Part shown: positions 22,772 through 63,542 of the stretch, piece by piece
How positions within the stretch are numbered: the stretch's first letter is position 1
Layout: each line of letters starts with the position of its first letter
From: Ceratodon purpureus
Lineage: Eukaryota > Streptophyta > Bryopsida > Pseudoditrichales > Ditrichaceae
DNA: 64,000 nucleotides
Direction: 5' to 3'
NCBI GenBank assembly: GCA_014871385.1
Contig: CM026426.1
Location: forward strand, 19,478,270 to 19,542,269
Translations under genes and position numbers: made by a program
The notes under the pieces: model-generated
Told to the model about the DNA's origin: nothing
What the model saw: the letters and a program-made list of their open reading frames with translations, nothing else
Database searches by the model: none

Positions 22772-22772
22772 T

Positions 22773-28060: not shown

Positions 28061-28062
28061 AT

Positions 28063-36209: not shown

Positions 36210-36230
36210 GCCACCAAAGGGAAAACCACA

Positions 36231-36266: not shown

Positions 36267-36739
36267 ATTCTGCCGGCCTACGCTCTGACCAAAAATATTT
36301 AATGGAACATTAAGACCCTATTACCACGGATTTAGGCATTATTGAATTCTGTGGATTTCTTTTCTAGGTTGAAGGATACCCTACATCCGCGGTAATAGGG
36401 TCCTAAAAACTAGTTATAATATTTTCTATCGTGGTAAATTAGGGCTGACGTCATCATAAAAAAATGATTACCGGGGACCATTATTAAAAGGGTGGATTGT
36501 CAATGCTTTAAATGTCTGAGCTTTATTCGATTTATAGAATAATTTATGTTAGTTTAGGGTTAGTGCAATATTATGGCTAACGTCATAATTTATAAGTGGT
36601 CATATATAAAAGGAATGGGAAGATACAATACCAGCATCTACTTCTACTAATAGTTTAGGGCATGGATGAGTGGCAATCGCTATTGATGAAACCCTAGCAG
36701 TCAACAGGAGGCAGTTAACAATCTAGTATAAGTTACATT

Positions 36740-36752
36740 GGGTTTAGGGTTT
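36740..36752 (-). promoter_or_regulatory. Telo-box upstream of the viroplasmin-domain gene
   Basis: GGGTTTAGGGTTT (complement AAACCCTAAACCC) lies about 80 bases before the ATG at 36,834. Telo-boxes are frequent in plant promoters. Similar words occur at about 36,650 and in the Gypsy-B LTR. Promoter function is inferred. Confidence 0.45.
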
Positions 36753-36833
36753 GGACGCCATTCTGAGGACCTTTGTTTCTTGTATTCGCTGCGTGCGTTA
36801 GTTTCTTGGTTGTGATAGTGTGACGTTGCAAAA

Positions 36834-37286: not shown

Positions 37287-37787
37287 TTTATCAAACAAAG
37301 GTTGTATCGTGTTATAGAGAAAAATAATGTCTATCATGAAGAATGACATGTAGTGTATACATGAAGATAAAGAGCCATAGACTAAGTAGAAGAAGAATCA
37401 TCACTAACAATGCCATATATTGTGGACATGAAAATAAGAAGCCATAGAATAAGTAATAAGAAGCCATAGACTATGTAGGAGGATAATCATTACTCAAAGG
37501 TTGGTCACACTGATCAGCTTCAATGTCTAGAAAACGGAATACTCTATTGCAATAGCGGTAACGACTAGAGTCATCGATCGCAGGTGAAGTTGCACGTGTG
37601 AATTGTTGTGCAATGCCCTCGGCATAGGAAGGCAGGGAAAACGTGGACGGGGGACTCTTGTAAAGCTCAGAGTTAACGCTTAGTCGCCGTTTGAGACCTG
37701 CATGCCTAGAAATGCAAACATAGTCAAGTTGATTTCCATTGGTATTGAAGATGAAAATTGCTAGGAGATGGTTTAGGGAAGAAATTG
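37287..37787. repeat. Spacer with short direct repeats
   Basis: Between two convergent genes. The phrase AAGCCATAGACTA(A)GTA recurs three times at about 37,370-37,475 (agccatagactaagtag, gccatagaataagtaa, gccatagactatgtag). Nothing else is recognised. The stretch should hold the poly(A) sites of both neighbours. Confidence 0.5.
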
Positions 37788-40700
37788 TTACGCACCCATA
37801 TAAATGCGCCCCTTTTTGGGTGGAGGAGAATCACTGTTAGAGTCAAATTGAGACTCTCCGCTGTACTCTTTGACAACAGGTTTATTCTTGTAGGCAGCAA
37901 GCACTCCCTCAAAAATCTCGTGATCACGCTCCAATGCTATCAAATGACGTTTCGAACGCGCACATGCAATGACAGAAGCTCCTAAACAATTACAAGTACA
38001 AATTAGTGATCATAATGTTACACAATATTACTCACAGAGAAAAGGTATGGCCTAGAACTGTTAGGAGATTGTGACCAAACAGAGCAGCAATCAGTCAGAA
38101 AAAGTGTAAATCACAGAAGATAGATCAGTGAGAAAGGAGATAGATCTATCGTAGAAACGGAGGAATTACATCGCCTGGATAATACTGGCCTTGAAGCCTG
38201 AAGAAATTCAATACAAAAATTAAAGGATCTCCTCTAAAAAGGATGGGTCATGTGATGGAAACGAAGGCATCCATGACATTGGTCCTCTGTATGAATGCTG
38301 TCAGAGTAAGCAATCGCAAACAGTGTAAACTGAAGGAAATTAAGAAAAAAAATAAAAAATGGAAGTAGTTTAAAGGATAAACCAATGTGAATGTGAGGTA
38401 CTGAATCATGAAATGAAACTAGTTTCAGGAAGAAAAATGGACAGTCAAGAGTAAGAGAGACATCAAAAAAAATTAAAATTGATTGAGTTAAGAGTCAGTG
38501 ACAAATTTCAAAAAGAGTGTTCTAACATTCACAAATTGAATCAGAATGAACATAAACAATATGGCAAAGGTCGACCACAGTCAAGGACAGAATTTGAATA
38601 GTTAATTTTATTTGGACTGTATATGAAAGGGCAGGCTAAATTTGACGCAGTATGTCCAAGACTTTTAATGAAAACCGAAACAATTAAGACCGAACCCATG
38701 ACTGATGGGGCTACGAAATCTTAGCACAAAGCATATAGAAGCTGAACCAAATAAGGATTACAGCTCATCAAATCAGGACGATCAAGGCTTGACATGTACC
38801 ATAGAAAAAAAAAAAATGTGATATGAACATACCTGTGCTGGCACTCCAGTCAAAAACGATGTCTCCCTCGTCAGTGAGTAAGTCCACAAAACTCTGGATG
38901 AACGAAGGGTCCTTCTCACGGGAGCCACGCCATGGGGTCCCGTCACGACGGAGGAGCTGAGAAATTTTGTCGGTGAAGTTACACAAATCATCTTGTTCGT
39001 CTGGGACGATGTTAACCCCGGCGTACTCTTTGTTTAATTGTCGAGTTCTAAATTTCACGCCCACGCTCTTGCGAGCATACACCTTGATGTTGAAATTGTG
39101 CGTCTAGAGAGAAAACCAGAGTTAGTATATAAGAGATTAAGGATCCAAAGAAGAAAATGATTGCTAAAAAGAGGAAGGACTTACGAATTTCTTATGAGGT
39201 AGAGTAGAGGCCATAGGGAGGGGATTGTATCCCCACCAGTCGCGAACAACACGAAAATCATAAGCACGGGAACGGTCATCTAAGACGCGTTCAATTTTGC
39301 GATCCTTGGCATGCATAAGAAGGATACATCCTACATCTGTTAAGTGGTAGGATGCAAAGTAGAAGAGGTTCTCAACATAGTCCTTTTCTCGTACGTTCCA
39401 TGAAGGAACCTCTTGCTCTGATATCACTAGAACTGGCAATCCCTCCGGAGCATCCGCAATGATCAAATCAATGCCAGGATGTTTTGGATTGAATTCTATG
39501 GCCGTGACAGGGTACCTTCGACCTTGTCCAATCTGGAAAAACGAAAGTTCAGAAGTGAGACAAACACGGTTTCAAAAGAATGAAAACTGTATTAACTAAG
39601 AGATGGTTCAGAAACTCTGGTTTTACACTGATGCTCACATGGTCAAATAGCTACAAGTTCAAGTAACTGCGATTTCTGCCTATTAGCACACATAACAATA
39701 AACTTACAATAACGTGAACCTACAATCCATTCAAAGTATACTTAACTGTGTGCCTGCAGGGATTGTTAGTCATAATAATCAGGCCAAAGCATTCGGAAAA
39801 TAACAAGGATATGGCATTATTTAGAGTGCCTCGCAGCATTCTAAATAATCAGAGGGTAGGGTTCGATCCAGCATATTAACCGTGCGGAAGAGCCTCTTTT
39901 ACACACAAATTGCACCAAAATGTACCGCATTAAGATTATTAATTTATGGCAAAAAGGAGCCAGACTCTACTAAATTACAACCATGTCGGAACTGGCTGAA
40001 TTCTGAATGGATACAGAGAAACAAACAGTCGTGACATTGACTTCGCTTAGATGTTGAGAACCAGGACTACGACGTATACACAAGATTAAAAGCATGAGCA
40101 ATGAATAAACTCGCTTTAGACTTGAGCAAGACTAATACAGGTCATTCATTGTATTGAGCAGTCCACAACCCGCAAAAGCAAGGTAGATCTGTGTACCTGG
40201 TGAATATGCTGAACGATATCCATAATTTGAGGCACCCATGTACTTTTGTGGTTGGACTCGCAAACCATCTCAACCGGGTTTCCTCTTTCCAGGTACATGG
40301 GCAATGTTGGTATCTCTGGACCAGAGGATGATGACGGAATTGTCTTTGGCATCAGAATGGGACGCGTTACGATCCTGGCCTGGCCTCACTGATGAGGAGA
40401 CTGAGCGGAGTCTCCATCTAATTTAAAGGAAGGACGCGAGCAGGCATTGAAAACCCCTCCCTCAGATGCTTGGGAGGAATTAGCCCCGACTTTCCCTGCA
40501 CTCAGCCCCTGAGACACCTGAGACAAGATCTCGGCAGTTACCCCTTGAGTCTTAGTGGCCGTCAGCACAGATGCATTCCCACCTGTCTGCCCAAGGTCTT
40601 GAGGAACATCAATGTTGTCATTGTTTCCATCTTCAAGGGGTGGTGCGGGTGGATGGTTTTTTTTGTTCCTACGCTTGGTGCCACGAACTCCACGACCTCT

Positions 40701-41919
40701 GGTCTGTGCAACGGGAGAGACTGATGCAGGCGGTTCGTCTTCGAGTTCAAGCCCTTCTACTTCTAAATGCAGTTGTGTGCCTCCTATCGCAGAAGGACTA
40801 GGGGGAGGGACCAAGTACGCCTCATCCTGGTGGACAATATTCCGTTCGCACTCAAGGAACCAGGCCCCTGTCAATAGCAAATGATTATCAAACCGGTCTT
40901 GGTGATCTGCAGTAAAGATGGTAGGTTGTGATTCAAGTAAAGCCACGTCTTCGAATTGCTTTGGCATGGCCCAGACACCAAGCGCGCCTTTATGAACAAG
41001 TTCGTTTTGAAAGTATCTGCAATCACAATGGTTAATAATATATAGATGGATTTGGTAGAAACACAATTCAGTACAAGAAATAGAATCGAAGAAATTACCT
41101 GTAGACTAGGCGATTCCCGGCCATCTTGCCTCCCTCAATCTTGAGGAGATCCGATCCCTTATGAAACCTGGGGCTTGCATTAGCTCCGAGTAAATATCCA
41201 TAAGCTTTTTTCCATAAGGGAACTCTCCACTTCTCAACGTACTGAATTGGTTTCAGAACTTCGTCTTTCCAGTCGATGTGAAGATTGTGAGTAGCGACCA
41301 GCCTCTCCACCTCATCAACGAGGTACCTCTCCAACTGAAGATGCTCGGAATTGTTAGAATAGATTAATGAAGTTAGAAGAAACATGTATGGAATGTAAAA
41401 GAAACAGGGTAGAGGATGTGAGGAATACCTGAGCCCAGAGGGATGTGACATGAAGCCATGTGTCTAGAGTCTTGTCCTTCATTGGCCGATCTTCTGGAAA
41501 CTGTACACTCTTGCGAACAGCGAGTGTCGCATTCCACCATTGAAGCCATTTGGTCTTGTGATCAGAGGGAACGTTGGTCGTTGCGATTTTGTGTAGGCGG
41601 TCAAGTGTCATATCCGCCAAAGGGAAATAAGAGTAATGATAATTGATCTGGAAAAAAGAAAAGAGTAAATGAGAGAATTATATGAAGAACTGGAAATAAA
41701 CAAGTGGAGGTAAAGAATCGAGAGTACCTCTTTTTCAAAAGACTCTCCTAGAGCTGGGTTCGCAACCGCTACCAACTTGTCAAAGTTTTTATTTCGGATT
41801 GCCTTGATGCATTTTTGGACAACAGTGTCCATTGCTTTCCAAACACCATGTCCAGTTGGTTTAGGATTGTTCTCGTAATAACTGGAACACGCAATGTCTG
41901 AAGCTTTTGAGACTTCACC

Positions 41920-44164
41920 CTGAACATAAAGTAATTCAGTTAGATAAAGGTCAGTCGGTAGCTTGCACTAAAAACATTGACTCGGCTAAAGTTATTATTG
42001 ACAGTGAGCTAGAATACGATATGTGAATCTGAGCACATTAACAGAAATGAAAAATTCTCGAAGTACTCATGAATCCATATTAATCTATAACTTTCCAAGC
42101 AGTTGGTGACAATGAACTTAATTATTTGCAGTAAACGAACTGTAGTTCTTAATAAACAAGACTACCGTCTGCGACAAAACAATAAACGAAGTTAGTCTTG
42201 GTGATATCAGAGGAGATGTTCGAATGGTTACAACTTGGATAATGTCCAGTTTCAAAAAAGTCATCAACAGTCTTTGCTGATACTATCGAGTAAACATAAA
42301 TAGCTTGTAAATAAAACAACATAGTCGTTCTGAAATAGACTGAGCAAAAAGCGTAGAAATGCTAGTCTGGCGAAATCTAATACGGTACTAGCTGAAGAAT
42401 TGGATTACTTCTCTGTTAAGGAAGTGGGCACCTGCGAGGAGATCATGGGCCTACCTAGGGAGCAAGTTTAGCGAACTCCAGTTATTGAAGGGCAATCTAA
42501 CACCTTGTGAAAGAGTTGGTTTGAGCATTGTATCGATGTAACTCTATGAGATATCTCCTCAATGGACGTGTAGGTTTTGAATATCTACGACCAAAGTTTT
42601 TAGAACAACGCCCAGAGAAATTGACTCCGGAATAGCGTAAGGGACTAGAAATGAAACAAACACACTTGGACAAAAAATTACATCGAAAACCTATACAGGA
42701 ACAATCCTTGACCGCAATCCGGCATCAACTGGAAAGATTGAGCATAAACCAAACGACTCGCAACCTCTGTGACAGAGGTGTAGGCTAACTTCCCGCAACC
42801 AAAGACTTAAATGCTTGACAACCGCCAGCGATCGTAGAAGGAACCAATCCCCGCCATCAAAGACAAAAGCAAGCCCCAACGACCCAAACGAAACAACCAT
42901 GTACAGACTAAACCGTCATGAACATGAAGGATGCTGAATGAAGCCCCAGAAATGCAGAATCAGGAGATGCTATGGGCAGGCTGCGTTACCGTAGGCCTGA
43001 ATAATATTATGAAGCACCCGGGCCCCCAATCTAAGATAAAAAATCGGAGCAGAACTTGAAGAAAACCAAAGCGGGAACATGTGCTAGACTCTAGAAACTC
43101 AAGCTAGACATGTGCTAGACTCTAGGAAATAAGAACTCGATCTTGTCCAGGATCCAGCGAATTCAATAAACAAAAAGAATCCACAGAACCGAAAGAGGAG
43201 ACACAATCGTATTAGAAACTTTCAAGACCAATTTGAAAAATTGAAACAGTATATAGAAGCTTTGATACCTGGGGGCTGCCTTCCATTGTAAAATTTATAA
43301 AATTTTAATTTCCCCTTAAACAAATACCTAGGAGAAGAATGCTCAATGAACTCATGCGAAACCTAAGAGAAGAAATTTATGATGGCAGACTACGTTACCG
43401 CAAGCTTACTTTCGGTAGGCCGGATTTCCAAACCAGAAATGAATAAAATTAACCAAGCCCCTTAATCAAAGATGGACCAAGAACATAATCAAAGATAGAA
43501 CATTAATTTAACCAAGCCCCTTACTCGAAGCAAAATCTGAAGGAGACTAGAAACCAAAGCATCGATGGGGGATATCAAACCAGTCTTTACTGATGCTATC
43601 TACATGAAATATGTGTGAAATGTATTAACTTACTCGTACATAAATTCACACATGAAAGAGCAGATTTAACTAATCAAAATTGGGAATGAAAATAATTAGT
43701 TCAGAAACCAAAAAACATCGGCAGAAGAGACACAGCAATTTAGGAAACTTTCAAAACTTAGGATTAAGAATGCAAGAACGAGATAGAAATAAAACAGTGT
43801 ATAATGTAGACCTGATACGTGGGGGCAGTCTACGCAGTCAAGAAGATAAATTTTCAAATTTCAATGCCCACTTTAAAACTTGTCACGACCATGAAGGATG
43901 CTGAATGAAGCCTTAGAGATGTGGAGAAGAAATATCTGAGAGCAGACTACGTTAACGCAGGCTTACATTCGAAACTTAAAAGAATAAAGTCACAAAGGCC
44001 AACTGTCCAGGCATAGTACATGGACACAGAACCTGAAGGAGACCATACCGAAAACCTAGGTGCATGTGACGATGTGAGATACTGGAAACCAAGCAGAGTT
44101 TATTAAAACAGTAGTATAATCAAGGAAAGATGAAAATACCATAAGACGCTGTAGAAAGACATAC
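41920..44164 (-). repeat. 2.2-kb intron with scattered palindromes
   Basis: This intron of the methyltransferase-like gene contains no supported gene. Degenerate members of the GCGTTAACGC palindrome family occur near 42,983 (GCTGCGTTACCGTAGGC), 43,391 and 43,948. It also repeats phrases such as ACATGTGCTAGACTCTAG (43,078 and 43,105) and AACCAAGCCCCTTA (43,451 and 43,511). Confidence 0.5.
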
Positions 44165-45242
44165 CGAAAACAAGAATTTGACGAAGACGTCCATCGTCAA
44201 AGAGTACCACGTCGGCTGCTTTGCTTTGTTTTTTTGGCAAACCTCCATGTCCTCGTCAGATATCAATTCTTTGAAGGATTGAAGATCAAGCTTCCCGAAA
44301 GTTCTAACCCGCTGAAGTTTAGCTGGAAGACCTTGTTTCACATGGTCATTCTCAGTTGACATGTTTCATGAGTACAAAAAGCGTAATTAGACCCAAATAA
44401 ATTAAGATGCATGAAGAAAATAAATTAAGAGTGTAATGGGATTACCAATTGATGTCATTCATGGCGTTAAGGAGTAACCCATGTTGTCGGCGTCCATCCA
44501 AAACGATACAATCAGGGGAAATGTACCAAATAGGATCATCTGCATGGAGGATTTTAATGTGACGAGTCCAGGCAGTGACCCTATGATTCCCCTCGTACAC
44601 ATGGAAGAACTTCTTGCTGAATTGCATAAGATCAGGATCCGCTTGGAGACGTTCCTCAAATCGTTCATTCTCGAGCTTCCAAATGGGGTTGAGCCAAACC
44701 TCTTCCGAACCAGTCACAGGGGTCTCCATATCTTGAGCATCGTATAAGGAGACGTATATCACCCGATCGCCTATGCGATAACCTCGAACGAAGTCATTCT
44801 CTAACTTTCAAACATCCTGTTCAATGATTGGGCGAACGAGAGGGCATGTAATCAATCGACAGAGGGGGATACACAGTCTAGATTTCCCCTGTGGAAAATT
44901 TCGAAGTCGATTGATAATTCCCACACAATCGTTCTTGTGCATTAGTCTAATCTCGTTGGCGGTGAACACTTGGTCTTGATCTAAGAGATGGGCAGGCATC
45001 TGACTAACATCTGCCTGGGCAGCCAAGGGTGAATCGACACCCAAGCCGTTAATGGGTGCCATGGAAGGTGTGGGAGTCAAAACCTCGACTGGCGCCTCGA
45101 TAGCATTGAGTTCGAGAATAACCTGAGAAGCAACAGCCGCAACAGCACACTCCTGACTTGCGATTGGATTGGTAGCTTCCAAGGGTTGAGAAGATGTCAT
45201 CGCAGGTCTCAAGGGGAGTGACTCGGAATCTGATAGAGCCAT

Positions 45243-47387
45243 CTGTTAAGAAGAAAAATCCAGTAGTTAGAGTTTAGCAAATATTACAATTAAAAACAGA
45301 GACTAATGTGTAAGGGAGATACAAATTAATTAAAAACATTGTAATGACATTGTAAGTTCAGATGAGACTCAAACAAGAGCATTGTAATGACATTGTAAGC
45401 ATCCTCGTCAACGAGGGTTACTTGAGCCCCAATCAGAATTCCCTTAGCCTCTAGAATCCGTGAGATCTCCAAGCCAGTTTTGCACCCAATATAAAAGAAA
45501 TTTGCAAACCAGATCATCCTCGTAAGCTCTATCTATGCTCCCAGCATAGCATAAAATGCACCCTACCACACGAGCACCGAGGCACAGCTATGCACCCCAG
45601 AACCGAGGCCAGTAATGCACCCTAGCACCGAAGCCAGAAATGCACCCTAGCATGAGCAAAAAACAAAATTAAACCATGAGCTAGAGCATCCTCGTCAACG
45701 AGGGTTACTTCTGAGCCTGTGAGAAATCTTGGTAAGCTTCCCCTTTGAGCCGAAATTGTAATAAAAATAATTTTTAACGAGAGCATCCTCGTCAACGAGG
45801 GTTACAGAAAATCCAACCAATATTCACTGTAAGCTCTCTCTGTATGCTCTCAGATCTCTCGAAGCTAGCAATGCACCCTACAACACGATCAAAGCATCAC
45901 CCCCTGTAATGACATTGTCAGCATCTCGATGCTCAAGGAAGGGGACTTGAGGGCAGTCTGCGTTAACGTAGGCTGCTCTCACAAGTTAAAAAAGAACTTA
46001 AATCTCAACACACATAATCCAAAGCGATCAGTACCGAACCGAAGCATCATCTCGATCCTGAAGAAGAAGGACCCGGGGGCAGTTTGCGTTAACGCAGGCT
46101 GCCTTCACAATGACAAGTTTATTTTCTACGAACCCATCCTAACATTAACTCAAACGTATCAGCAACCATAAACATCATCAAGTAAGAAAATATTAACTCA
46201 ACCATAACGTGAACTTAACCATCGATAAGTTAATCAACTAGTCCCCGTAAATGAATCTGCCTGGGGCAGCCTGCGTTAACGCAGGCTCTCTTCACAGGTA
46301 CAAAAATGATGTAATTGTAACATAATCTAGAGCGAACAGCAATGGACCGAACCACAATATGAGCATCTCATCGCTCAAGCAAGGGGACTTGAGGGCAGTC
46401 TGCGTTAACGTAGGCTGCTCTCACAAGTAAAAACAAATTAAATCTCAACATACATAATCCAAAGCCATTATAACCAAACCGAAGCATCATCTCAATCCTC
46501 AAGCACGAGGACCCGGAGATAGTCTGCGTTATCGCAGGCTGCCTTCACAATGACAAATTAATTGCTAAGGAACCTACCCTAACATTAACTCAAACGTATC
46601 AGCAACCATTGACTCAAATATAACTCAAACATATAACTCAAACATAACCATCAATAACTCAAACAAAACATGGTCAGCGTAGGACCGAACCACAAAGCGA
46701 GCATCTCGATGCTCAAGGAAGGGGACTTCAGGTCAGGCTACGTTAACGTAGGCTGCTCTCTCTAGTACCAAACAAAAGGAAATTCTAACATACATATCCC
46801 AGAGCCATCAGCACAAATCATAGCATCATCTCAATCACGAGGACCCAGGGTCAGTTTGCGTTAACGCAGGCTGCCTTCACAAGATTCTGACCAACACTAA
46901 CATAAACGAAAACCTGTACTTGAAGCCAATATTGAACTTCGAGAAGCCTACACTACGAGAAGCCATACTTGAACTACAGTAACCAGTACTCATGAATGCA
47001 TTATATAAGGGCGGTCTGAGCTTGTAAACTCTCCCCGTCACAAGTGAAATAATAAACATTCAATAAGCATACCACCGGAACAACAATACTTTCACCTCCG
47101 AATTCATACTTCACCAAACTATCACTAGTTCCAAATGGTAATACCACCAACATCCGAGAAAACCTAATTTACAAAGTCAAGCACCTTCACGGAATCAACA
47201 ATGTTTGCATATTCGAATTTCAAATTATTGTTGTAGATAACCTAAGTCCACAATCGCAGCGATCCAAGTCCAAATGTTGTGTTCAGAATTTCTTGATCGC
47301 TGAGGTTTAGGCTACAATTAGCAAGCGACTTGCTGTCCATTATCCTGAGGGTTTAGACCAAAAGTTTGAGTTGGAATTCTAACTCAC
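45243..47387. repeat. Intron packed with two families of palindromic hairpins
   Basis: Family 1: TGCGTTAACGCA or a one-to-two-base variant at 45,959, 46,085, 46,272, 46,401, 46,525, 46,739 and 46,856. It is usually extended by GGCAG...CTGCC to a 30-base stem; the 46,272 copy has a 20-base perfect palindrome. Units alternate (one ending in TGCTCTCAC, the next in TGCCTTCACAA) and form three larger tandem blocks (about 45,930-46,120, 46,375-46,560, 46,715-46,890). Family 2: CCTCGTCAACGAGG at 45,403, 45,690 and 45,787, each inside a longer GCATCCTCGTCAACGAGGGT copy. Positions 47,000-47,380 show nothing more. Confidence 0.8.
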
Positions 47388-47540
47388 ATGATCTGCTTGC
47401 GCGTTCACCATCTCCGATACTTCGCCAAGTATCACATCCTCTTTTCCAACATCCATCGCAATTGCCTGAGGTGATGCAGCATCTCTTCCAACCACCATCT
47501 CGACTGCCTGGGAGATTTTGGAAACCAACTCAATATCCAT

Positions 47541-48773
47541 ACTCGTACACTCAAGAAAGAAAGAGAATTCTGATTCCGAGCACCTTCTCCTAAGTACCCT
47601 TCGCAGACCAAATCGAATCCAAGCAATCGCCATTTGGAATTCCAGCAGTTCATTATTCCCCAACAACAAACCCAATCTTGTACACACTAAAAACAGATAT
47701 TTCATTCTTGCTGCCGTCGGTTGCTACTTGGATTCCTGCAAAGTAAAATCTAAATCCAAGCGTGAGCCAACCATCTTGACGACCACTCCAATCTTGGTAC
47801 TCTTTTACAGTCTGTTCTGACTAGCTTCACATTAATTAGACCACCCTAATCTCGATTCTCTTTCATACTCTGTAATATGTATAAAAATCTGACAACGCCA
47901 AGCTGCAATTCCGAAATTAGCATCGCGACTTTACTGTCCACGAACCAAAAGCCTAACCCTGATGACCACATGACCGCCCACTAAGTTTGATCCAAATGAA
48001 AACCATTCTCAATTCGCAATATCGAAGTTGGCCATATGCACGCGTACCAACTTCCACTATACCCGCTCGCCATATACCCGGGATCCGAATACAAGCTGGC
48101 CATATACCCGGTTCTGCAATTCGCATGTAAGAACCGGTAATTTACCCGAGTTTCGTATACCCTGTCCACCAGCTTATACCCGGATATCATGATATTTCCT
48201 TGTAAGTATACATTGTCTCATCTTTAAGCGTATGTGTAAAGACTCTACATTTGTTGAAAGATAAAAAGAAGGAGTTGCTATTTATCAAAATTAAGGAATA
48301 AAAAAAGTCGAACAAAACCTATTTCCAGTTGTTTTATTCTTATGCACACACATATTCATGTAAAAGATTAAAAACTAAAATACTATAAGCTATCACCTTC
48401 ATTATGTACGCCTAATTTACATGTTAAGGAAGTTATATCTTAATAATTGTTCGTTCCAAATTCCACGATCTTAGCGTAGGACGATCTTACTATGGTCAAT
48501 ATACCATGATATAATAACTTGAAGAGTCTACAAATCAAAAGATACGGAATATATAAAAGTTTTTAAAACAATCGCATATTATCCCTTAGGAATCTTCATT
48601 TGCAATAATTCACCATGTCACATATTAGAAAAAGAATTGTATACTTTTAAGATATTCTAATAGAAGTAATTACCTCCTCCTCAATGGATGGACCATGTGA
48701 GATATTTCTCTCGTCGATTGCATCCAAAACATTTCCCTTCACATTGTTTTCATCGCGTGACAACTTACCACCT
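47541..48773. other. Unassigned stretch in the Mutator-like element
   Basis: AT-rich in its second half (48,200-48,680). A small repeat of CATATACCCG/GTATACCCGG words occurs at 48,030-48,185 (CGCCATATACCCGGGAT, GGCCATATACCCGGTTC). No supported gene. It probably includes the promoter of the methyltransferase-like gene and the 3' end of the gene at 49,313. Confidence 0.4.
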
Positions 48774-49313
48774 TCAAAAGGCATGTCTTCTGTAGTCTGC
48801 CACTTCACAAGTCACCATGTAGTCTCTAAGTACACTATCCGTAATCTACAAACAAAAAAACTTTAAAAAAATAAACAGTAATAAACAATATATAGTGAAT
48901 TCAGAAAATAGTACCTCATTCTGTATTTTGTCACACTGATCAATTACAATAGTATCAAACCCAAGAGAGTCGCAATGCGAGGGAGACTGGTGCATGTAGT
49001 CCTCTTCTGCTTGAATGTCTTGTCCATCATTCCTTTCATCGACGTCCACCTTCTCCACAATCTCTACCACTGACTCTAAGTTAATTGAACGCATCTTAGT
49101 ATGTCTCCTAAATGAAACTGATCCTTCATCATCAGATCTTTCCACTTCGTCACCATATTGATCCTCTCCTATAGACACTGACGCCTCCTTCCTACGTTGA
49201 GCATTGCGCTTCATCGCCTTCGTATTACTAAACTTCATGCCACCCCTCCTCTTTTTTTTCTTCTGCGTTGTATCTACCTTCACTCTCTTTCCTACATTGT
49301 CAACTAGGTCCAT
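48774..49313 (-). CDS. Small basic/acidic protein of unknown function
   Basis: Exon 1 (49,313-48,915, ATG at 49,313) and exon 2 (48,845-48,774, TGA) join in phase across a 69-bp GT-AG intron (GAG|GTACTA ... TTTGTAG), giving about 156 residues. The N-terminus has a KKKKRRGG stretch that could be a nuclear localisation signal; the middle is acidic. No domain is recognised. It is divergent from the transposase, sharing a 0.5-kb promoter region, which suggests joint expression and perhaps an accessory role. Alternatively these are 5' exons of a longer transcript. Confidence 0.4.
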
Positions 49314-49840
49314 ACTACACGCAATCTTCAAGACCGGATTTCTAACTACAACATTGCACCTCAAGTCCACTATATCTCACTCAAGAACAAAGAGACATAA
49401 CTCTTGCATTCCACCTCTAGATATACGAATTCTAGATCTCAATCCTCTCCCTAATTATATGCACGCGCATTCTACTTGTCCATGAGCCACCAATGCCTAA
49501 CAATATGGCATTCCGCGTCTGACATGTAATTCTAATCTCATTTCAATGGCAGGTTACAAAGACGGCCGCCGGCGCGTTTCTAATCTAACAAGTGAACTAA
49601 ATACTAACAACTCTTACTTTCAAGGCTTAATATAATTTGATGCATTATCATTATATATATCATGCACTCACCATAATCCATTACAACATTAATATATAAT
49701 ACACCAACATCAATAATTCACTGTCATCTTTATTTATCAACAATCGTACGTTAACCTTTATGCATTATAAAGAGGTTCACAAAGTCTGAACAATCCCTTC
49801 TCATGTGAATTGTCCATGCACACTATCACCTGCTCTCCCC
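49314..49840. promoter_or_regulatory. Putative bidirectional promoter
   Basis: Intergenic region between divergent coding frames (minus gene at 49,313, transposase at 49,841). It is AT-rich at 49,620-49,760, with TATATATA at about 49,653 and TTATAAAGAGG at 49,765-49,775 upstream of the transposase start. Promoter function is inferred from layout. Confidence 0.4.
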
Positions 49841-52800
49841 ATGGCTTCCTCTTCTACTCTGCCTCCAATCCTTACTGCTATTGAGATTTCTTCTGTTGGT
49901 TCCAGTGCTCCCATCTGCATCCCCCCTGGTCTCGGTGGGTTGGCAGATATTACTTCTCAATGGCTAGGAATTCGTTTTGGATATGATGCTTCTACTCTCT
50001 GGTTAGAGACAGAAGTTATGGATCCTATAACTAAGCAAGTTCAGTACTCCAAGGTCGTAGAGCCTTCATCTTCTGTTAACAACGTTAAGATGTGGAAGCT
50101 CTGTCCTAGGAAGTACCGTCTGTATGGTTTGACCGAGTCTGTCATGAATGCCTCCACAGTTCTCCTAACTCCTCGTAGTTCCTCTACTCTCTCCACTGTG
50201 GTTCCGATGACTGCTCGTGTCAAGGTTGAGCCAGGAACTCGCGTCAGTATAGATATTTCAGATTCGTCCGATGATGAGAATAAGTCTTCTGTTGAGGCTC
50301 GTCCCGCCTCTTCAAAACTTCCTTCTCCTTCGTTTTCATCTCAACACTCGCATAGGTCAACCCAATCTCACTTACCCTCTCCTCAATCTACAAAACAGAA
50401 AACCATTCTTCCATCTCTTTTAGCTCTCTCTAGTATGAGTGGTAGTAAAAACATCCTAAAAAAAATAAACTTCAGATCCATCCGTACTGTAACTACATCT
50501 TTCCTACCCCCGTCATTCAATGGCGACGTACTCTTCATTCTCCCTCCTGCCCCTTCATCAGCATCCCAGAGGACTGCGAAGTCCTTGGACGGCATGGACA
50601 AACGATACGATGGTCACGTTTGGACCAGAACTATGACCACCAACATTAGCAACACACTAGGGTTGACATTCAGATACTCCCACTGTGTAGGGCATCTGCA
50701 ATGCCACAACCCTCAGTGCAGTTTCTTGCAACGTCCTGACCGTGCGCATGGAGTGAACGAGTTGGAATTCGAAGGCGTCACCAAAGACCTATTCCCTGTG
50801 GGGGAGGCGCCTCCATCTGCGTCAACTCTGCTCTGTAAGATCTGCAAAGAACCCCCTGTCTGTGTGAGTCTCTGTAGTGCCAAAATCTTCTACATTTTCG
50901 GTGAGGACAGTCAAGAGCGTGCCTGTGTGCATATTGGTACTCACGAACATCCGGTGAAAGTAGGAGACTACAGATGCTTCCGAGGGAAGGTAGATGAGTT
51001 GATAGAGGAACATGTTGGACTAACCCCCGATGCTACCATCTCAAAGATAGTTCTAGAAACCAGTAAGGACCTTCTTGGTAATTTCCTTCTTCGTGACGAA
51101 GCTGACCCACAGACTTCTCCCCTCTCTGTTCATGATCTAGAACCTGTCTTTGAACAATGTAGAGAATTGAACTCCCCTGCATTACGAAACCGTATCTACA
51201 GTTTCAAAATGTTACGAAGATATGGCGTCATAGATGGGATCACGAAACTCAGAGGTCTCAGTAATTGGGCCTACGTCCAGAAGAATATCTTTCCTGGCCA
51301 AGGCGACGACGCTGATAAAGTCTTCATATTCAAGATGTCAGAGGTCGGTCCTGGAAGCGGTGTTGATCTAGTCCGCTGTATGCAGCCCGGTGGGTCCCTC
51401 TCTCAAGCCTGGATGATGTTTGACCATGTCAAACGGGTGAAACCTTGGGCCACGATGGGGTGCCACGTCTACGACTCCACTTATCAACGCATACTAACTA
51501 TTGCATGCTGTGAATTCCAATCTGAGGACACAGAAGCACAGGTGTTGTTCTGGACGAATCTCAATGACGTTATGGCAAGGCACGGAATACCAATGCCTCA
51601 ATTCCAAGGATTCATGGCTGATAGTGCGCAGGCCAATTGGAACGCCGTGCGCATTGTTTATGGCTCCGGTGACCCTAGTGTCCCGATGGAGGGCCAAGAA
51701 AGGACATGCAACTTTCATTGGACGCAGTCACTAGAGACTCACACCAAGAAGTATATTATTCACGACTTGCAAGACCAACACAAGGTTTTGTGCAAGCAAT
51801 ATAAAGATGCACTTACCATGGATGAAGCAGAGACACGTTACTTGGCGATCAGGGCTTGGTGGTCATCCTCAAATGCTACATCAGAAACAGGGCTCTATAA
51901 TCTTGGCCACTGGCTATCATATTGGCATCATCGTTACAGACAGTGGGGTGGATTCATGGAATTGGTCAGTTCTATCTTACTGTAATATACTTCATGTTTA
52001 TCTTTTTTTCTTCTTTTATCCTTTCTTATATTTTAAATAAATTATAAGAAATTATAATATCTATGTTTAGGAGAGGGTTGCGATAACGCAAGCCTCTCCC
52101 ATGAGGTCAAAATATAATTTCATTGATTTATTGCTCATCAATTAATTTGCAGGAAAACAAATATTCTGCCGAAGAGCTGGCTGAGATGCCGTCCTGTAAC
52201 CTTGCGGAGTCTATTCACAATAAATGGTTACAAGCTTCTGGAAACAAGGGTGGAGACTTGTATGTGGCAGCTGTCGATGATTATGTACGTGCATTTCTCC
52301 AAGTTGTTGCGTACGATCAGTACACAAAAGGTGGAACGGGTGGATTTGGTCCATTCAGAGAAGAACTTAGGCTACGTAGTGCTCAACGTCGTGCTCAACG
52401 GAGCGGTGATCCTTCGGCACTCAGTAACATGGTGACAGAGTTCCCAGGAGCAGAAGAATTTTGTACTCGTGATGCGCACTTAGAGGGAGCAGAAGTATTT
52501 GGTACACGGAAACGTAAAGCCAATGTTCCAATCGGAGCTGAAGAGGAAACTCATAGACCAGACACCGTGAATTTCTCACGTCCTCGAATTGGAAGAAGGG
52601 TTACCCGTGCCCGTGGTGGAAGCTTGACTACCATCCAAGAAGACGATGATGTTGAGATAAACCCTCTTCAGCCTTCGACCTCTATTCCGTCCGAAATTCA
52701 GCGCGTGACAGCTGTGCAGGAGACTTCTGTGGATGTAAAGCAATGGCACATTGCTCGGCTTAATTACAACTCAGCGAAGTCCTGTTGGGCTCAGATGGCA

Positions 52801-53601
52801 GTGACAAAGAAGAAGTGTGAATCGCGCATAGTCCAGAACGGGAAGTCCACCCCTGCTCCAACGTACACCGGCATATGGATGCCTCCTCAAAATGGTCAAC
52901 GCAAGAAGGTGGAAGAATTTTATTTCTACCCCGACGATATTGAGAGGTGTGTGAAGGGTACTCGTCGGAAGTGGGTTGAGCCATTCTCACGAACTCAATC
53001 TAGACCCCCCCTCCCAACAATCTGGCCCGTGAAGATAGGCACCAATCTGACTCGTTCAGAAATGGAGGCCTTGGAGAATGCTAGTTTTCAACTACCTCAG
53101 AAGGAACGACTTCATCCTAACCGTTCATTCAATAATACATTAGTACCTCGGGACTTGTCCAATGTTCCGGTGCCGGACAATGCCGATGTCTTCCCAAAAT
53201 CAAGGAAGTCAAAGACACTCCGTCGCATCACAGACGTTACTTCCAAGCATACGAGGACCATTGATTCAGCCCGGGCGATATAAGCAAAAATCTTGAAGGT
53301 CACCTTACTACCACATCCTGGTATTGGATGCATTATTTCGATGGAGTCGGACTCACAGGCAGTATATCAGCTGTCAATTGGTACATTCCCTTATTGCACC
53401 TGTCCGGTCTTTAAATCAACGATTGCTAAGTTAGGGCGTAGAGGAGAACCTTACAGACCTTGCAAGCACCTGTACTACGTTTTTGTGTTAGTGTGTCATT
53501 TTGAAGCAAATGTAGACCTCTTCATCCACGCACCTACCTTCAGTTTCAACGAGGTCAAGATGATCATGGAGAGGGGAATCCTAGACCTCCTCTCAGAATA
53601 G
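49841..53601 (+). pseudogene. Mutator-like DDE transposase with SWIM finger
   Basis: Exon 1 is 49,841-51,964 and exon 2 is 52,153-53,601; the 188-bp intron (TTG|GTCAGT ... TTTGCAG) joins in phase. About 1,190 residues. The N-terminus is Ser-rich and disordered. A WRKY/GCM1-like zinc region reads CVGHLQCHNPQC (about 50,680) and HIGTHEHP (50,930). The DDE core has HVYDSTY (about 51,467), FMADSAQANW (about 51,612), CNFHW (51,708) and, after the intron, NLAESIHNKW (about 52,197) as the likely third acid. A SWIM finger, CTCP...CKH, lies at 53,395-53,470. It would bind and cut the GAGCGTA termini. An in-frame TAA at 53,281 separates the SWIM finger; CAA-to-TAA is the simplest origin. The start was set at the first ATG; the frame is open from 49,805 (GTG). 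Confidence 0.8.
52070..52099. repeat. Hairpin in the transposase intron
   Basis: GGAGAGG and CCTCTCC flank TTGCGATAACGCAA, giving a near-perfect 14-base stem. The core resembles the TGCGTTAACGCA palindromes in the introns of the methyltransferase-like gene. It lies mid-intron and may affect splicing or be a remnant of the same hairpin family. Confidence 0.7.
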
Positions 53602-53864
53602 ATGTGACTTTACATAAATATAGATAATTTATAGAGTAGATGAGATAGTACATTACATATAGATTACTCATATAATCTCGTGGTTCATACAATATGTAAT
53701 ATTGTTACACAACACTGTGTAAATCAATATAATAGACACTACTATCATAACGATGCATACGCCATAGCAAACATCTCATTCCCTCCGACACTCAGACTTA
53801 GGCCTTCAGAACTTGAAAAGTCCTTACAGCAAACTCTGCACTATGAGATCCAGTTTCCTGTTTC

Positions 53865-54227
53865 TTACTGTAAAGGACAACCCGTCCAACTCTTGTCGAT
53901 ATGCAAATTTGCGCCATCCGATATGATCACAGACGGCAACTGAACAACTGGATTCACGTCAGAGGTGGAGGTCAAGGGATACGGAATGAGAGACTCTGTC
54001 ATGATCTTCACCATCTTGATGGTACAAGCCACTGTCCACCGCCATTCCCCATCACCAACACGGAGGCGTCTGATGTGCCTGAACGGCGGAATGACCACGC
54101 CTCGTTTCCTAGCGCGCTCCACCTCCACCAGCCATGGCCGCAGCTCCTCATAACTCGCAGGTGCCTCTAGGGCTAAACCCACAGCCGCCCTTGTCCTCCT
54201 TGACATCCGTTTACGCACCTTCGGCAT
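53865..54227 (-). CDS. Small protein of unknown function near the right end of the transposon
   Basis: Complete 120-residue minus-strand frame, ATG at 54,227. The N-terminus is basic (MPKVRKRMSRRTR). A middle section with SYEELRPWLVEVERA looks helical, and WRWTVACTIKMVKIM could be an amphipathic or buried strand/helix. No family is recognised. It converges with the transposase and lies about 0.6 kb from the right terminus, mirroring the small gene at the left terminus. Coding status rests on an uninterrupted, composition-plausible frame only. Confidence 0.4.
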   Translation of the reverse strand: MPKVRKRMSRRTRAAVGLALEAPASYEELRPWLVEVERARKRGVVIPPFRHIRRLRVGDGEWRWTVACTIKMVKIMTESLIPYPLTSTSDVNPVVQLPSVIISDGANLHIDKSWTGCPLQ

Positions 54228-54829
54228 CTCTCCCGACGCTCTCTCGTTGCTTCTAAACCGATTCAAGCTACCCCGGAATGAACTTTGCCTATCATTCTAT
54301 TGCAAGTCTTGACACATAGTGGATTGACACAGCCCGCGTCAGTATGCTAAGTCCTCACTCCAAAGCCCACAGAAAATCCAAAAACTGGATGTAGATAGGA
54401 ATCATAAACCTCCTCTCATAAAATCCAAAATCGGGCTGTAGATAGGAATCTTAGACCTCGTCTCACAATAGATGAACTTTACATTATGTATAGATTATTC
54501 GCATACTCATGTAGTTCACACGTTTAGAGAATCAGAAATCTGAAACCTTTGTAATTAAATACAATACTAAAATCTATGACTATGTCATTTCTCTCCATGT
54601 CGCACTAATTCATGTAAAGAGTTTCTATGTAGACTTCACCGAAGTCCACATTTTCACCCTTAAAACCACGGGTTTGGGTAAGAAATTCCACGGTAATAGG
54701 TACCAGTTAATTCGAATATTCTGTCTAATTTCATCATATTTGCGAGAATATTCTAGAAATCCTTTTTTTTAATTTATTTTTAGTAAAAGACTGACTAAAA
54801 ATGTACCCTCACCGCTCTCAGATCTGACA
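54228..54829. other. Right subterminal region of the transposon
   Basis: Contains a partial direct repeat (TAGATAGGAATC...GACCTC at 54,390 and 54,430) and CCACGGTAATAGG near 54,695, which matches the left subterminal motif. No gene is supported. Confidence 0.5.
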
Positions 54830-54865
54830 TTCTACGCTCTACGCTCTACGCTCTACGCTCACACC
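54830..54865 (-). repeat. Right terminal inverted repeat
   Basis: Exact 36-base complement of the left terminus (36,231-36,266), reading TTCTACGCTCTACGCTC and ending CTCACACC. Four GAGCGTA heptamers on the minus strand. Confidence 0.92.
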
Positions 54866-54887
54866 CGAGTAACGTCCTGCCACCAAA

Positions 54888-58218: not shown

Positions 58219-58259
58219 GGCATATTCCGGCACATGGCATTTGGACAAGACAATGTTTC

Positions 58260-58400
58260 TATTGATATCAAGAAATGTAGCTCAAGAAGAGAGCGATGAA
58301 TTAGAAGCAGGAGTGTTTATACAAGTGAGCCAGAGACGGCGACTGCTTTAGGGTTCTAAAGATAGTAAACCTAATCTACTTCTATTTCTGTCTGTGAACA
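58260..58400 (-). repeat. Copia 3' LTR
   Basis: On the minus strand it begins TGTTCACAGACAG and ends GATATCAATA. It is very short for a plant Copia LTR. It differs from the 5' LTR at three transition sites. Confidence 0.88.
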
Positions 58401-58408: not shown

Positions 58409-58462
58409 CAGACCGAACACGCAGTGTCGGGGTGAAGATTGTCTCTCTTCGTGGGTATCTTG

Positions 58463-59024
58463 ATGTCGAGTATAAAGGTGGAGAAGATGCCTGGTCGGAA
58501 GGCCGCGCGCACCTGGATCGATTATGTCGTGGTGTTGATGTGGTCCATAGCCGGCTTAATGTGCTGCTTGTTTGGAGGGATCTTCGCGTGGATTGATGCG
58601 CGGTTGCCGAGGAGACTGGGTGAGAGGACATCACACGGTGATGTCGGGGAAGAACCAGTCGGTGGCGCCGAAGTTGGGCGATTCGAGGGAGTCTTCGGAA
58701 CAGGTACGAGTTGATTTTGTAGTTGTTGCATTTTGTTGATCGGGTTTTTGTTGGACTGGGTTTTCTAACCTGTGGGTTGTCAATGCAGAATGTTCTACTG
58801 TTGCGAAGGGAGCTAGAGCGACAAAGGAGCTTGATGATCATAGAGTGCCGTTAGGTTCAGATATTTCTAGGGTTTCTAGTAAATTGTATGTTGTACGCAA
58901 GGGGAGATTGACCGGGGTTTTCACAAGCTGGGAGAGCTGTAGGGCGCAGGTTCACAGGTACCGAGGAGCGGAATTCCGTTCTTTTGGGACACTGGGAGAG
59001 GCGCAGGAGTATTTAGCAGGTTAG
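58463..59024 (+). CDS. Membrane-anchored viroplasmin/RNase H1-N-domain protein (copy 2), antisense in Copia
   Basis: Exon 1 58,463-58,703 and exon 2 58,789-59,024 (TAG) join in phase across an 85-bp GT-AG intron (ACAG|GTACGA ... AATGCAG), giving 158 residues. A hydrophobic helix lies at residues about 20-45 (VVVLMWSIAGLMCCLF within it). The C-terminal 45 residues form the viroplasmin domain: LYVVRKGR, GVFTSWESC, VHRYRGAEFRSF, then T-L-x-EA-x2-YL. It shares this layout with the gene at 36,834 in the Mutator-like element. It lies between the end of pol and the 3' LTR, on the opposite strand, converging with pol about 50 bases away. The frame is intact although pol is ruined. An alternative start is ATG 58,487. 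Confidence 0.75.
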
Positions 59025-59069
59025 GGTTTTGATAGTCCTGCTTTCAGGAGAGATAGAGAGAAGAGGGAG

Positions 59070-62000
59070 AGATTATGTCTATGCTGTTCAAATTTAATCC
59101 GTCCCAAAGGCTTGGTAAGAATATCAGCCGGCTGGAGTGCGGTGCTAATAAATTGTAGTTCTATTTCCCCCCCTATCACTCGCTCACGTATGAAATGATG
59201 ATGTATTTCTATATGTTTCGATCTGGCATGGAAGACAGGATTTTTTTGCTAACTTGATGGCGCTCTGGTTGTCGCAATGGATACTAAGTGAGGGTTCTAA
59301 CTCTTTACTGATTGGGCTTGTTTTATGCTGGACTTGGATTGTGCAGTTTGGGAGTACCTGGAGTTCGCTGAGGAGTCTGGAGATCCAAACTCCTTCTTGG
59401 ACGCCGTCGCTGAGGGCACGGTATTCAGACTCCGTGGAAGACCTTGAAATTGTCAGCTGCCGCTTGCTGCTCCAGCTAATGGGCGATCCGGAGAGGTTGA
59501 AAAGGTACGCTTCCACGCTCCTTCTCGTTTCTATGCAAGAGCCCCAATCGGCATCTGTAAACCCGGTTAGAGATAGGGGTTGTTGCTTACGGTAAAAGAG
59601 GCCATAGTCGGGGGTTTGTTTAAGGTACCGTAGGACATGTATGGCCAAGTCAAGATGCTGTTGCTGGGGTCGGGCCATGAACGAAGCCACTCTGTTCACG
59701 GCATATGAGATGTCGGGGCGAGTAATAGTGAGAAAAATGAGTTTGCCCACTAACTGGGAGTAGTGAGTGGAATCAACAGGCGGAGTTCCTTTTTCAGAGA
59801 CGAGTATCTGCCCTGCAGGAAGAGGAACCTTCGAAGGTTGAAGCTGCGGAGGAAGAAAATCTCGAAGGATGGACAAAGTGTATTGGTGCTGATGGAGTAG
59901 GATGCCGGTTGGAAGGTATTCGAAAACCACGCCCAAGTATTTCTGGATCCTTCCCAAGTCGGTCATGTCGAACGTTTTTGTCAGATAGGTCTTGATCCAT
60001 TAAATGAGATTTTTGCAGCTGCCTGTGATGAAAAGATCATCAACGTAGAGCATGACTAGGAGTATGTGGTTTTTGTTGGGCAGGTAGTAAAGATTTGGAT
60101 CATAGGAGCTTCGTTGCAGTCCTACTTGGCGTAGGGATGAATCAATGTGCTCATACCAGGCCCGGGGGGACTGCTTGAGCCCGTACAGGGAACGCAGCAG
60201 GTGACAAACCTTATGTTCCTGGCCGGGAGTGACAAACCCAGGAGGCTGGGACATGTAAACGTCTTCCTTTAAGACGCCGTGCAGGAATGCAGTGCGGACG
60301 TCCATGTGATGGACGTCCCACTCATTTGCTGCAGCCAGGGCAACAGTTGCGCGGATAGTCACCCATTTAATAACCGGCGCGAAGGTTTCTTGGTAATCGA
60401 GTCCTGGTTTCTGTTGAAACCCCCGTGCAACCAACCTGGCTTTTCTAATAGGAGGATATCTAGGGGGCCCGGGTTTGGTCTTATAGATCCATTTACAACT
60501 AATCGGCTTAATGCCCTTGGGTAATGTTTCTAACTCCCATGTTTTGTTTTTATAGATACTAGTCATTTCCTTTGTCATGGCTTCAGTCCAATGCGGGTCT
60601 CGTATTGCTTCCTGAAACGTGGGTTCTAACACATCTACAACCGGTGGGACCTGCGCAGGCAAGCTTTCTGAGCTATCAACGAGCGCAGTGTAGCAGTCGG
60701 GGGAATCCTGAGATAGATACACATAGTAGTCTCCCAGCTTGATGCTGGGAGCTCGTGATCTGGAGCCTCTACGGGGTTCTACAGGAAGAGATGCAGGTTG
60801 AGAATTTTCTAATGGTTCAGGTTGTTGTGCAGGTACGGGGGACCGTGGAGGAGAAGAAGGCTGAATATCAGGGAAAAGGACTGGAGGTAAGCAGGGGTCC
60901 TAGATTTCTGTGGAAGAAAGAAGCGCTGAATGAATAGGTTGGTCATGTGAGAGATCAATTGTTTCTAACAGAGGTGGTTGGCCTTGTGCAGGAGGAGGAT
61001 CCAAGGTAAACAGGGATTCCTCGAAGGTAACGTCGCGGCTGAGAAGGATTTTTTGGGTGATAGGATTATAGCAACGGTAAGCTTTTGAAGACTCATCGTA
61101 TCCTAACAATAAGGTAGCAATAGCTTTAGGATCAAGTTTAGATCGTTTTTCCTTTGGGATATGGCAGAATGCAAGACAGCCTATGACTCGTAAGTGTGAA
61201 ATGTTTGGTTTCTGACCTGTATATGTTTCCTCCGGTGTCTTCGGGTTGAATGCTCTGCAAGGCAATCTGTTCTGGATGTAATTGACTGTGCGAGCCACCT
61301 CATCCCATAAGAACCTAGGAATGCGAGTCCCAGAGGCAACGCTTCGAATCCCTTCTAGCAGGTAACGATTCCTACGCTCGGCTACTCCGTTTTGTTGTGG
61401 AGAATACCCTGCTGTTAACTGGTGATGGATGCCGCTGGTTTTGCAAAAGTGCTCAAACTTGGATGAGAGATATTCTCCCCCCCGTCAGATCGAAGAGACT
61501 GTATCTTTTGAATAGGTGTCTCTACCAGCGCTTTAAATTGTGTAAAGTAGCTAAAGGTCTGAGATTTAGTTTGAAGAAAATAGATCCATGATTTTCGTGA
61601 AAAAGCATCTATGAAGGTTAAAATGTACTTACAGTTTGTCAGTGTGGGTGTAGACAACGGGCCACAGAGATCGCTGTGCACAAGCTGGAGCGGGGCAGTT
61701 GAAAAAGTTGATCTTGTTTTCGGGAAAGGCTGCCGATGAGACTTGCCGAGGACACAACTAATGCAGTGTCGCTTGAGGTTTGGGATTCTAGGGATTCCAT
61801 TTACAAGCCCCCTGTTTGATAGATGATAGAGACTTTGCCGGTTAACATGGGCCAATCTTTTGTGCCAGAGATCTACAGTTTCAATAGAAACTTTTGGCGG
61901 TGTAGTAACTGAGAGTACTGTGGAGTGTTGTGTGACAGGTTTCCTAGTCAATCGGTATAACTTGGTGCGAGGGTCGCGGTGTGCTTCAAGAAACACGGCC

Positions 62001-62450
62001 TTGGGATTGTGAGTATCATAGATAAGACATTAATCTGAGTTGAATAGAATCGTATGGCCCAAGTCTGCAAAGCGACCCACAGAGAGAAGGTTGGTTTTCA
62101 CACTTGGAACGTACAGAATATCTTGCACACTTTTTACTTCATGATCGGAGAAGCTAATGTTTCCCTTGTGTACTACAGGAAGAACCTGCCCTGCTGCGGT
62201 TCTAATACTGGTGATGGGAGAATGAGACTTGTCAGAGAAGAAATGAGGGTTCCCGGTGACGTGAGAACTGGCTCCAGAGTCAAGGAACCATGGTTCCTCG
62301 TCCGCCGTGAACGCAGACATACAAGCATTCAAGGCAGCTTGTGTCTCATCTCCTTCAGAATCCTCACTTGGTAAGTTGTCAATTGTGGAGTAAGATGTGG
62401 AGTGAGAAGTCTTGAGCTTGGATAGTTGTATCTGGAGATCGCGTATCTGT
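59070..62450 (-). pseudogene. Copia pol: protease, integrase, RT, RNase H, broken
   Basis: Reading leftward: protease WFLDSGAS (about 62,280); integrase HHCC (H-x3-H in WHKRLAH, CISC; 61,870-61,770) and HSDLCGPL / RSDGGE (61,665 and about 61,485); a GAG-pre-integrase region before them. RT has LVARGFQQ, MDVRTAFLHG and the catalytic YVDD (about 60,045). RNase H has TDADWG, ESEYRAL and HCDNQSAI (59,480-59,250). Damage: TAA near 62,030, an extra G in a G run near 61,482, further frame loss around 60,900 and 60,720, TAA near 60,000 and a frame change in an A run near 59,245. The end of pol overlaps no other gene but stops about 50 bases from the antisense gene. Confidence 0.88.
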
Positions 62451-63329
62451 TGCTCAATCTTCGTGGTTTGGCAGTCTGCTTCTGTGTGCGTTGTTGAACC
62501 GCAGCCCTTGCAGGTGCGTGGTGCCTTGAAAAGACCTGCCTCGGCCTCTACCGCGTCTGCCGAAGCGCCCGCCCCGGGAGGAAGTCTGGCGGTGCTGTCC
62601 ATCGGATTGCTGAGCGTACAAGACTTCATCCGAGTCGCGCCTGTCTGTGATGCGTGAGCTTTCCTCATGCAGCATCGACCCTTGTAATTCTGAAAAGGTA
62701 GGGCTCCGTTCCCTACCTTGCTCTATAGCTTTGAATGTGCTCCAGCTTTTGGGCAAGCTGGACAACATCTGATCCACTAAATCTTTGTCTTGTATCATCG
62801 CTCCTAAGCTAGCTAGTTGGGTGACTATAGAATTCACGTCCTGTAAATGCAAATCTAGGGTCTTGCCTTCAGGCATGCGGAGTGAATACAGTCTCTCCTT
62901 CAGAGCTAAGCGGCGTGAGGGAGACTGAACGTCATACATTGTCTTTAGTTTGTTCCAGATTACTAAGGGGTCAGTTAAATGCAAGATATGAAGGATAACG
63001 TGATCCTTAACTGTTGAAATGATGACTCGACAGGCTTTGATCTTGCGTTCAGCCTCGTCGGTCGGTGCGGAAGCTGGTGTGGGAGCAGGTGCTGGCGCGG
63101 TGGCAGCTGTGGCGGCGGCGGTCACTTCGGAGCTGGTTTGTGCTGAAGTTGCCGAGTTGGTGCTGGAGCTTGTGCCCGAACTGGTGCTGGTGCTGCTCGC
63201 AGGTACATCAATATATTGCCACAAATTTTCCTGCATGAGAATCATTTTAGTCCTATAACTCCACAAGAGATAGTTGCTCTGGCCCTCTAGCTTCGTAGAG
63301 TCAGATGTGTCTTTAAGAGTGGAGTCCAT
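62451..63329 (-). pseudogene. Copia gag
   Basis: ATG at 63,329 (frame open further upstream into the LTR). UBN2-type Gag with YLLWSYRTKM near the start, KLKTMYDV and later LSSLPKSW and an RGRGR stretch. The CCHC knuckle CKGCGSTTHTEADC (about 62,510-62,470) is in the next frame, so a frameshift lies near 62,560. It forms the particle and binds RNA. Confidence 0.85.
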
Positions 63330-63396: not shown

Positions 63397-63537
63397 TATT
63401 GATATCGAGAAATGTAGCTCAAGAAGAGAGCAATGAATTAGAAGCAGGAGTGTTTATATAAGTGAGCCAGAGACGGCGACTGCTTTAGGGTTCTAAAGAT
63501 AGTAAACCTAATCTACTTCTATTTCTGTCTGTGAACA
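63397..63537 (-). repeat. Copia 5' LTR
   Basis: 141 bp, matching 58,260-58,400 except for three transitions. It contains the promoter; no TATA box is obvious in so short a sequence. Confidence 0.88.
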
Positions 63538-63542
63538 GTTTC

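Follow-up and report, generated by a model that had tools for sequence, protein, structure and literature searches.

Several plant LTR retrotransposons are known to carry extra open reading frames in antisense orientation between pol and the 3′ LTR. Examples are Grande, RIRE2, Retand and PvRetro13, and some of the products carry putative nucleic-acid-binding domains (PMC7264820, PMC11963269). The role of these frames is described as unknown (PMC7264820). Genes related to nucleic acids have also been found in other mobile elements. The viroplasmin-domain gene capE is reported from one long helpo1.3 copy of a Pleurotus ostreatus Helitron (PMC4289320), and the uptake of DNMT genes by retroelements is reported from the alga Klebsormidium and the dinoflagellate Symbiodinium (PMC5890265). 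The viroplasmin domain has in addition been noted in bacterial RNase LS defence proteins (PMC3710099). Binding of RNA:DNA by the human HBD is reportedly impaired by the exchanges W43A and KK59/60AA (PMC10639055). No HBD gene inside a retrotransposon was named in the titles and abstract openings that were surveyed. Here we describe such a gene from Ceratodon purpureus, in a stretch of 64,000 nucleotides that is referred to as the window.

Results

The gene is carried by a Copia LTR retrotransposon of 5,278 bp (58260-63537), whose sense strand is the minus strand of the window. The 3′ LTR (58260..58400, 141 bp) and the 5′ LTR (63397..63537) are identical in 138 of 141 positions, leaving three mismatches, and the element is flanked by the 5-bp TSD GTTTC (58255..58259 on the left and 63538..63542 on the right). 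A tRNA-type PBS, TGGTATCAGAGC, which we take to be of the initiator-Met kind, lies immediately inside the 5′ LTR, and a G-rich PPT, GAGGGGGGG, adjoins the 3′ LTR. Pfam matches on the minus strand follow one another as Retrotran_gag_2, Pol_BBD, gag_pre-integrs, rve, SH3_retrovirus and RVT_2, which is the Copia order of gag, protease region, INT and RT. The earlier note had placed a viroplasmin-domain gene antisense in a Copia element, between pol and the 3′ LTR, and the LTRs, TSD, PBS, PPT and Pfam matches bear this out.

The gag-pol region occupies 59021..63329 on the minus strand, as delimited by the listing of open reading frames and by Pfam, with the first gag Met placed by eye. Three frame changes and three in-frame stops divide it into seven open, stop-to-stop stretches; one of these frame changes, where gag gives way to the remainder, might be natural. 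Judged by its LTRs the copy looks fairly recent, and its gag-pol is no longer a single open reading. No further copies or remnants of the element were found in the 64-kb window, and a scan of a viral contig collection by a few peptide patterns gave no match for its RT. A protein search with the RT, in a set that included plant proteins, returned 1053 matches at E 1e-20 or better, the two best among the 120 matches listed being 64% and 73% identical. In an RT tree built from the window and 25 of the 120 listed matches (26 rows in all), the element groups apart from the rows bearing plant names.

Other stretches of the window also resemble retroelements. A LINE-like open reading frame recognized by eye at 7068-11621 has near its start the 2A-like peptide GDIESNPGP, a putative self-separating translation signal. 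A pair of repeats 12.9 kb apart (21940-35304) encloses gag-pol-like frames, of Gypsy type by eye, and long sense frames follow these at 30734-34719, before the second repeat of the pair. At 5853-6389 an 18-bp tandem repeat with uniform 18-bp spacing lies within the open frame 5576-6682.

The antisense gene is located on the plus strand, has 158 codons and closely fills the interval from the pol end to the PPT. Its stop codon (59022-59024) overlaps the last gag-pol stop (59021-59023). In position and orientation the gene agrees with the antisense frames known between pol and the 3′ LTR. A start at 58439 had been proposed; the frame is open from 58436, but its first in-frame ATG is at 58463. Exon 1 (58463..58703) encodes a basic N-terminus and the hydrophobic segment, and exon 2 (58789..59024) a linker and the C-terminal HBD. 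The predicted GT-AG intron between them (58704..58788, phase 1) has the 85 bp and the in-phase character that the earlier note had given it, since its removal preserves the reading frame and leaves both exons open in one spliced frame. The donor reads CAG/GTACGA and the acceptor TGCAG/A, with a branch-like CTAAC 20 nt upstream of the acceptor; four alternative in-frame GT-AG pairs exist besides this one (donors 58691-58730, acceptors 58771-58815). Splicing is a prediction from the splice-site reading. Exon 2 has no in-frame ATG, so the HBD would be reached from an AUG start only via splicing.

No TATA[AT]A motif was found upstream of the gene on the plus strand (58101-58470). From its position, and from the spacing of 62 nt between the ATG and the edge of the 3′ LTR, this LTR would hold or adjoin the promoter. 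An AATAAA at 59147..59152 on the plus strand, inside the pol region, may serve as the poly(A) signal. Direct repeats of 6-12 bp bounding the insert were absent when 58395-58475 was compared with 59010-59120, and Rfam gave no matches at the gathering score.

Residues 22-40 of the encoded protein are strongly hydrophobic (highest 19-residue Kyte-Doolittle mean 2.29) and probably form a transmembrane segment. The only Pfam match of exon 1 was sub-threshold (T4SS_pilin, 14.4 bits against 26.6). A reading of exon 1 as an organelle-targeting sequence was set aside by judgement, given its acidic residues and strong hydrophobic core. In exon 2, residues 112-155 match the Pfam domain Cauli_VI (PF01693) with 65.1 bits against a cut-off of 21 (E 6.7e-18), which is far beyond chance. 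The exon also matches the HBD of human RNase H1 (PDB 3bsu) in sequence, at E 1.1e-9. Its AlphaFold model (mean pLDDT 66, pTM 0.43) is confident only over the HBD, where pLDDT is about 86, and the predicted HBD fold superimposes on 3bsu_F with a TM score of 0.92 by target length and an rmsd of 1.0 Å. The profile match above the curated cut-off, together with the match to 3bsu in sequence and fold, identifies the domain as an HBD of the RNase H1 type. Among four human HBD positions that were checked, Y29 and W43 are kept in the Copia copy, K59 is replaced by R and K60 by S; the last replacement is also found in the related sequences P0001 and P0004. Pfam detected no nuclease domain in the protein, Cauli_VI being the only domain in exon 2, and the reading frame closes three residues past the HBD.

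Among 73 candidates, a search with the full-length protein found no match that reached E 0.001. Of 363 candidates compared with a profile of both HBD proteins of the window, 7 matched at E 1 or better; each match covered 28-32% of the query, and none extended beyond the HBD. According to precomputed Pfam assignments, five of them carry an RNase H domain, while P0004 and P0005 have Cauli_VI alone; P0005 resembles a truncated version of the P0006 type. Three scans of viral contigs with a few peptide patterns each, among them the scan noted above for the RT, yielded nothing, and a further pattern scan of such contigs yielded seven loci with HBD matches. The 56 pattern matches in prokaryote genome contigs included no relatives. 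Foldseek matches place the HBD fold also in Caulimovirus P6 and in giant-virus and phage proteins.

The second HBD gene (36834..37286, plus strand) is intronless, has 150 codons and matches PF01693 at 1.3e-17. It lies inside a Mutator-like element of 18,659 bp (36219..54877), which is delimited by inverted repeats and a direct repeat. The inverted repeats are perfect over 36 bp (36231-36266 and 54830-54865), and the 10-bp direct repeat TGCCACCAAA is found 12 bp outside this perfect core, at 36209-36218 and 54878-54887. Among 20000 pairs of 51-bp windows drawn at random, 39 had a 10-mer in common. Mutator-like elements have a TSD of 9-11 bp, and the element has both the TIRs and the TSD of this class. 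Pfam did not match the candidate transposase frames at 49790-51982 and 52105-53280, a SWIM finger was matched at 53284-53598 only at E 0.37, and DDE-like residues were seen by eye only.

Several further features were noted in the Mutator-like element. Its inverted repeats contain four tandem AGCGTAG heptamers. Minus-strand frames at 38768-39571 include words that by eye resemble degenerate amino-methyltransferase motifs (DLIIADAPEG, VFDWSASTG) and have no Pfam match. A seven-copy repeat family at 45920-46888 has a palindrome-like core near GCGTTAACGC.

The two HBD proteins share the order of their parts, as the earlier note had said of their two-part layout, and the hydrophobic maximum begins at residue 22 in each, with a mean of 1.99 in the Mutator-borne protein. 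In the model of the latter, the HBD is preceded by a long N-terminal helix that is predicted with less certainty beyond about residue 60; the residue at human HBD position 59 is K. The note had further called them the same gene, which does not hold: the HBDs are 47% (tblastn) or 52% (short alignment) identical, the N-terminal halves align so weakly that 38 of 2000 shuffles score as high, and the intron predicted in the Copia copy is absent from the Mutator copy. The two are divergent relatives in layout. The charge counts of the two proteins point in opposite ways, which leaves the topology unsettled. A TATA motif is present at 36603-36605 for the Mutator-borne gene, in contrast to its Copia-borne relative.

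Between the two HBDs pN/pS is 0.35 (bootstrap 0.21-0.53, over 44 codons with saturated synonymous sites). This indicates past purifying selection on the HBD since the split of the two copies, acting either in transposons or in host genes. The intact frame of the antisense gene was dropped as a sign of selection. In a neutral simulation at the rate derived from the LTRs (K 0.0216), the gene stayed intact in 1392 of 3000 runs (46%) with half of K per copy, in 654 of 3000 with K and in 184 of 3000 with twice K, and the density of damage in gag-pol gives a neutral expectation of 51%.

Discussion

The best reading of the locus, to which we give a probability of roughly 0.45, is that of an accessory gene of the Copia element, antisense to gag-pol, which makes a membrane-anchored protein binding RNA:DNA hybrids or dsRNA. 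Transcription would start at a promoter within or beside the 3′ LTR and run counter to gag-pol, and the transcript would be spliced once and end inside the pol region. The genomic RNA would carry the gene as its complement, from which sense splicing could not remove the intron; the intron would thus travel with the element without being spliced out during retrotransposition, and the earlier note's explanation of its survival by the antisense orientation is sound on this reasoning. The product would be anchored in a membrane by a single pass, and its C-terminal HBD would bind RNA:DNA hybrids, and dsRNA more weakly, without cutting them. The most likely benefit would be to hold or shield the hybrid or double-stranded intermediates of the element at a membrane-bound assembly site.

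The analysis established computationally how the gene is built, which domain and predicted fold it has and what its key residues are, and that the HBD of the two copies was under purifying selection in the past. An accessory gene is supported by an open gene that fits the interval between pol and the PPT and has no bounding repeat, by the retention of Y29, W43 and a basic residue at position 59 and the HBD fold with the low pN/pS, and by the same order of parts in the Mutator copy, together with the precedent of antisense frames at this site in plant LTR elements. The reading is weakened by the single Copia copy seen, with its broken gag-pol and a degree of intactness compatible with neutrality. 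Further points that weaken it are the missing upstream TATA[AT]A, the unsettled topology, the saturation of synonymous sites and the possibility that selection acted in host genes, as well as the limitation of the seven profile matches to the HBD and of confidence in the exon 2 model to the same domain.

We favour an accessory gene over a one-off capture, which is nevertheless quite possible: a gene of the host or of another transposon, with its intron, would have entered a single Copia lineage by recombination or template switching and be a passenger with no role in the element. The one known copy and the neutral account of its intactness fit such an event, as does the viroplasmin gene reported in one Helitron copy (PMC4289320), and the intron would suggest a genomic rather than an mRNA-sense source. 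However, the gene abuts pol and the PPT tightly with no excess flank, and in a second transposon there is a gene whose parts follow in the same order. The low pN/pS between the HBDs also speaks against a mere passenger, although this selection may have taken place in host genes. The same Helitron precedent, with one gene each in two TSD-flanked transposons of different class within one 64-kb window, could be taken to reflect a mobile family of membrane-anchored HBD genes that moves among Copia, Mutator-like and possibly Helitron elements, for its own sake or as an anti-silencing module of wide use. This is improbable, as there are just two cases and one distant precedent, the N-terminal likeness is weak (38 of 2000 shuffles), and the genes may instead have arisen separately from host paralogues.

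It is very unlikely that the gene entered after the Copia element had integrated and never moved with it. The age of the insert does not follow from the LTRs and TSD by themselves, but a nested insertion would be at odds with the absence of bounding direct repeats and with how closely the gene fits the gap between pol and the PPT. Least probable is that no working gene is present, with open frames left over and an intron that is a chance reading. The broken gag-pol and the presence of five in-frame GT-AG pairs in all are in keeping with a non-functional sequence; against this stand the Cauli_VI match at 65 bits and the agreement of donor, acceptor and branch-like site with two exons that are open in one spliced frame.

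The earlier note's suggestion of repeated recruitment stands in part. HBD genes do reside in two different TSD-flanked transposons, and a fungal Helitron offers a precedent (PMC4289320), but the two are not the same gene. For the role in silencing or replication that the note proposed, the domain itself is the basis. It is doubtful, though conceivable, that different transposon classes in this genome each keep a membrane-anchored, nuclease-free binder of RNA:DNA hybrids, of which the Copia version would be stably inherited as an intron-bearing antisense gene whose intron its own RNA intermediate could not strip. Should the HBD gene prove common to several classes, the binding of hybrids might be something that transposons repeatedly require or use as a weapon. 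With a domain of known chemistry, the antisense cargo points to a definite and testable function, the binding of RNA:DNA hybrids or dsRNA at a membrane, and an intron in antisense would offer a natural marker of how a gene passes unspliced through an RNA intermediate.

Comparison with known systems sets the gene apart from the proteins that share its domain. It resembles RNase H1 (human 3bsu and 6vrd, yeast 1qhk) in the sequence and fold of the HBD and in the binding residues Y29 and W43, but the catalytic domain that follows the HBD in the enzyme is absent, for which reason identity with RNase H1 was rejected, and an N-terminal hydrophobic segment stands in place of it. With the Caulimovirus transactivator/viroplasmin P6 it has an HBD-like fold in common. 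Most of the listed P6 matches have 420-540 residues (a few have 132-177, one of them marked as a fragment), whereas the present protein has 158 and ends just past the HBD; this leaves no room for a transactivator body, and identity with P6 was likewise rejected. Like capE, it is an HBD/viroplasmin gene carried by a transposon, although of another class and in another kingdom, and the two are likened by description alone. The uptake of a nucleic-acid-related gene is shared with the DNMT-bearing retroelements. In Klebsormidium the DNMT is in contrast part of a Gypsy Pol frame, is intronless and was tested for selection across copies (PMC5890265).

The nearest parallel is with the antisense frames of plant LTR retrotransposons, which share the orientation of the gene and its place between pol and the 3′ LTR. 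The gene differs from them in its Copia-type host element and its predicted intron, and its cargo combines an HBD and a probable transmembrane segment instead of TRP28 or SMC; the TRP28 domain of the Retand-type frame (PF04195) matched neither exon at values up to E 1. The corresponding region of Retand spans 2,933-6,566 bp (PMC11963269), as compared to one compact gene in about 620 bp here. Position and orientation thus match those of known antisense extra frames, while the HBD cargo and the intron are, to our knowledge, new.
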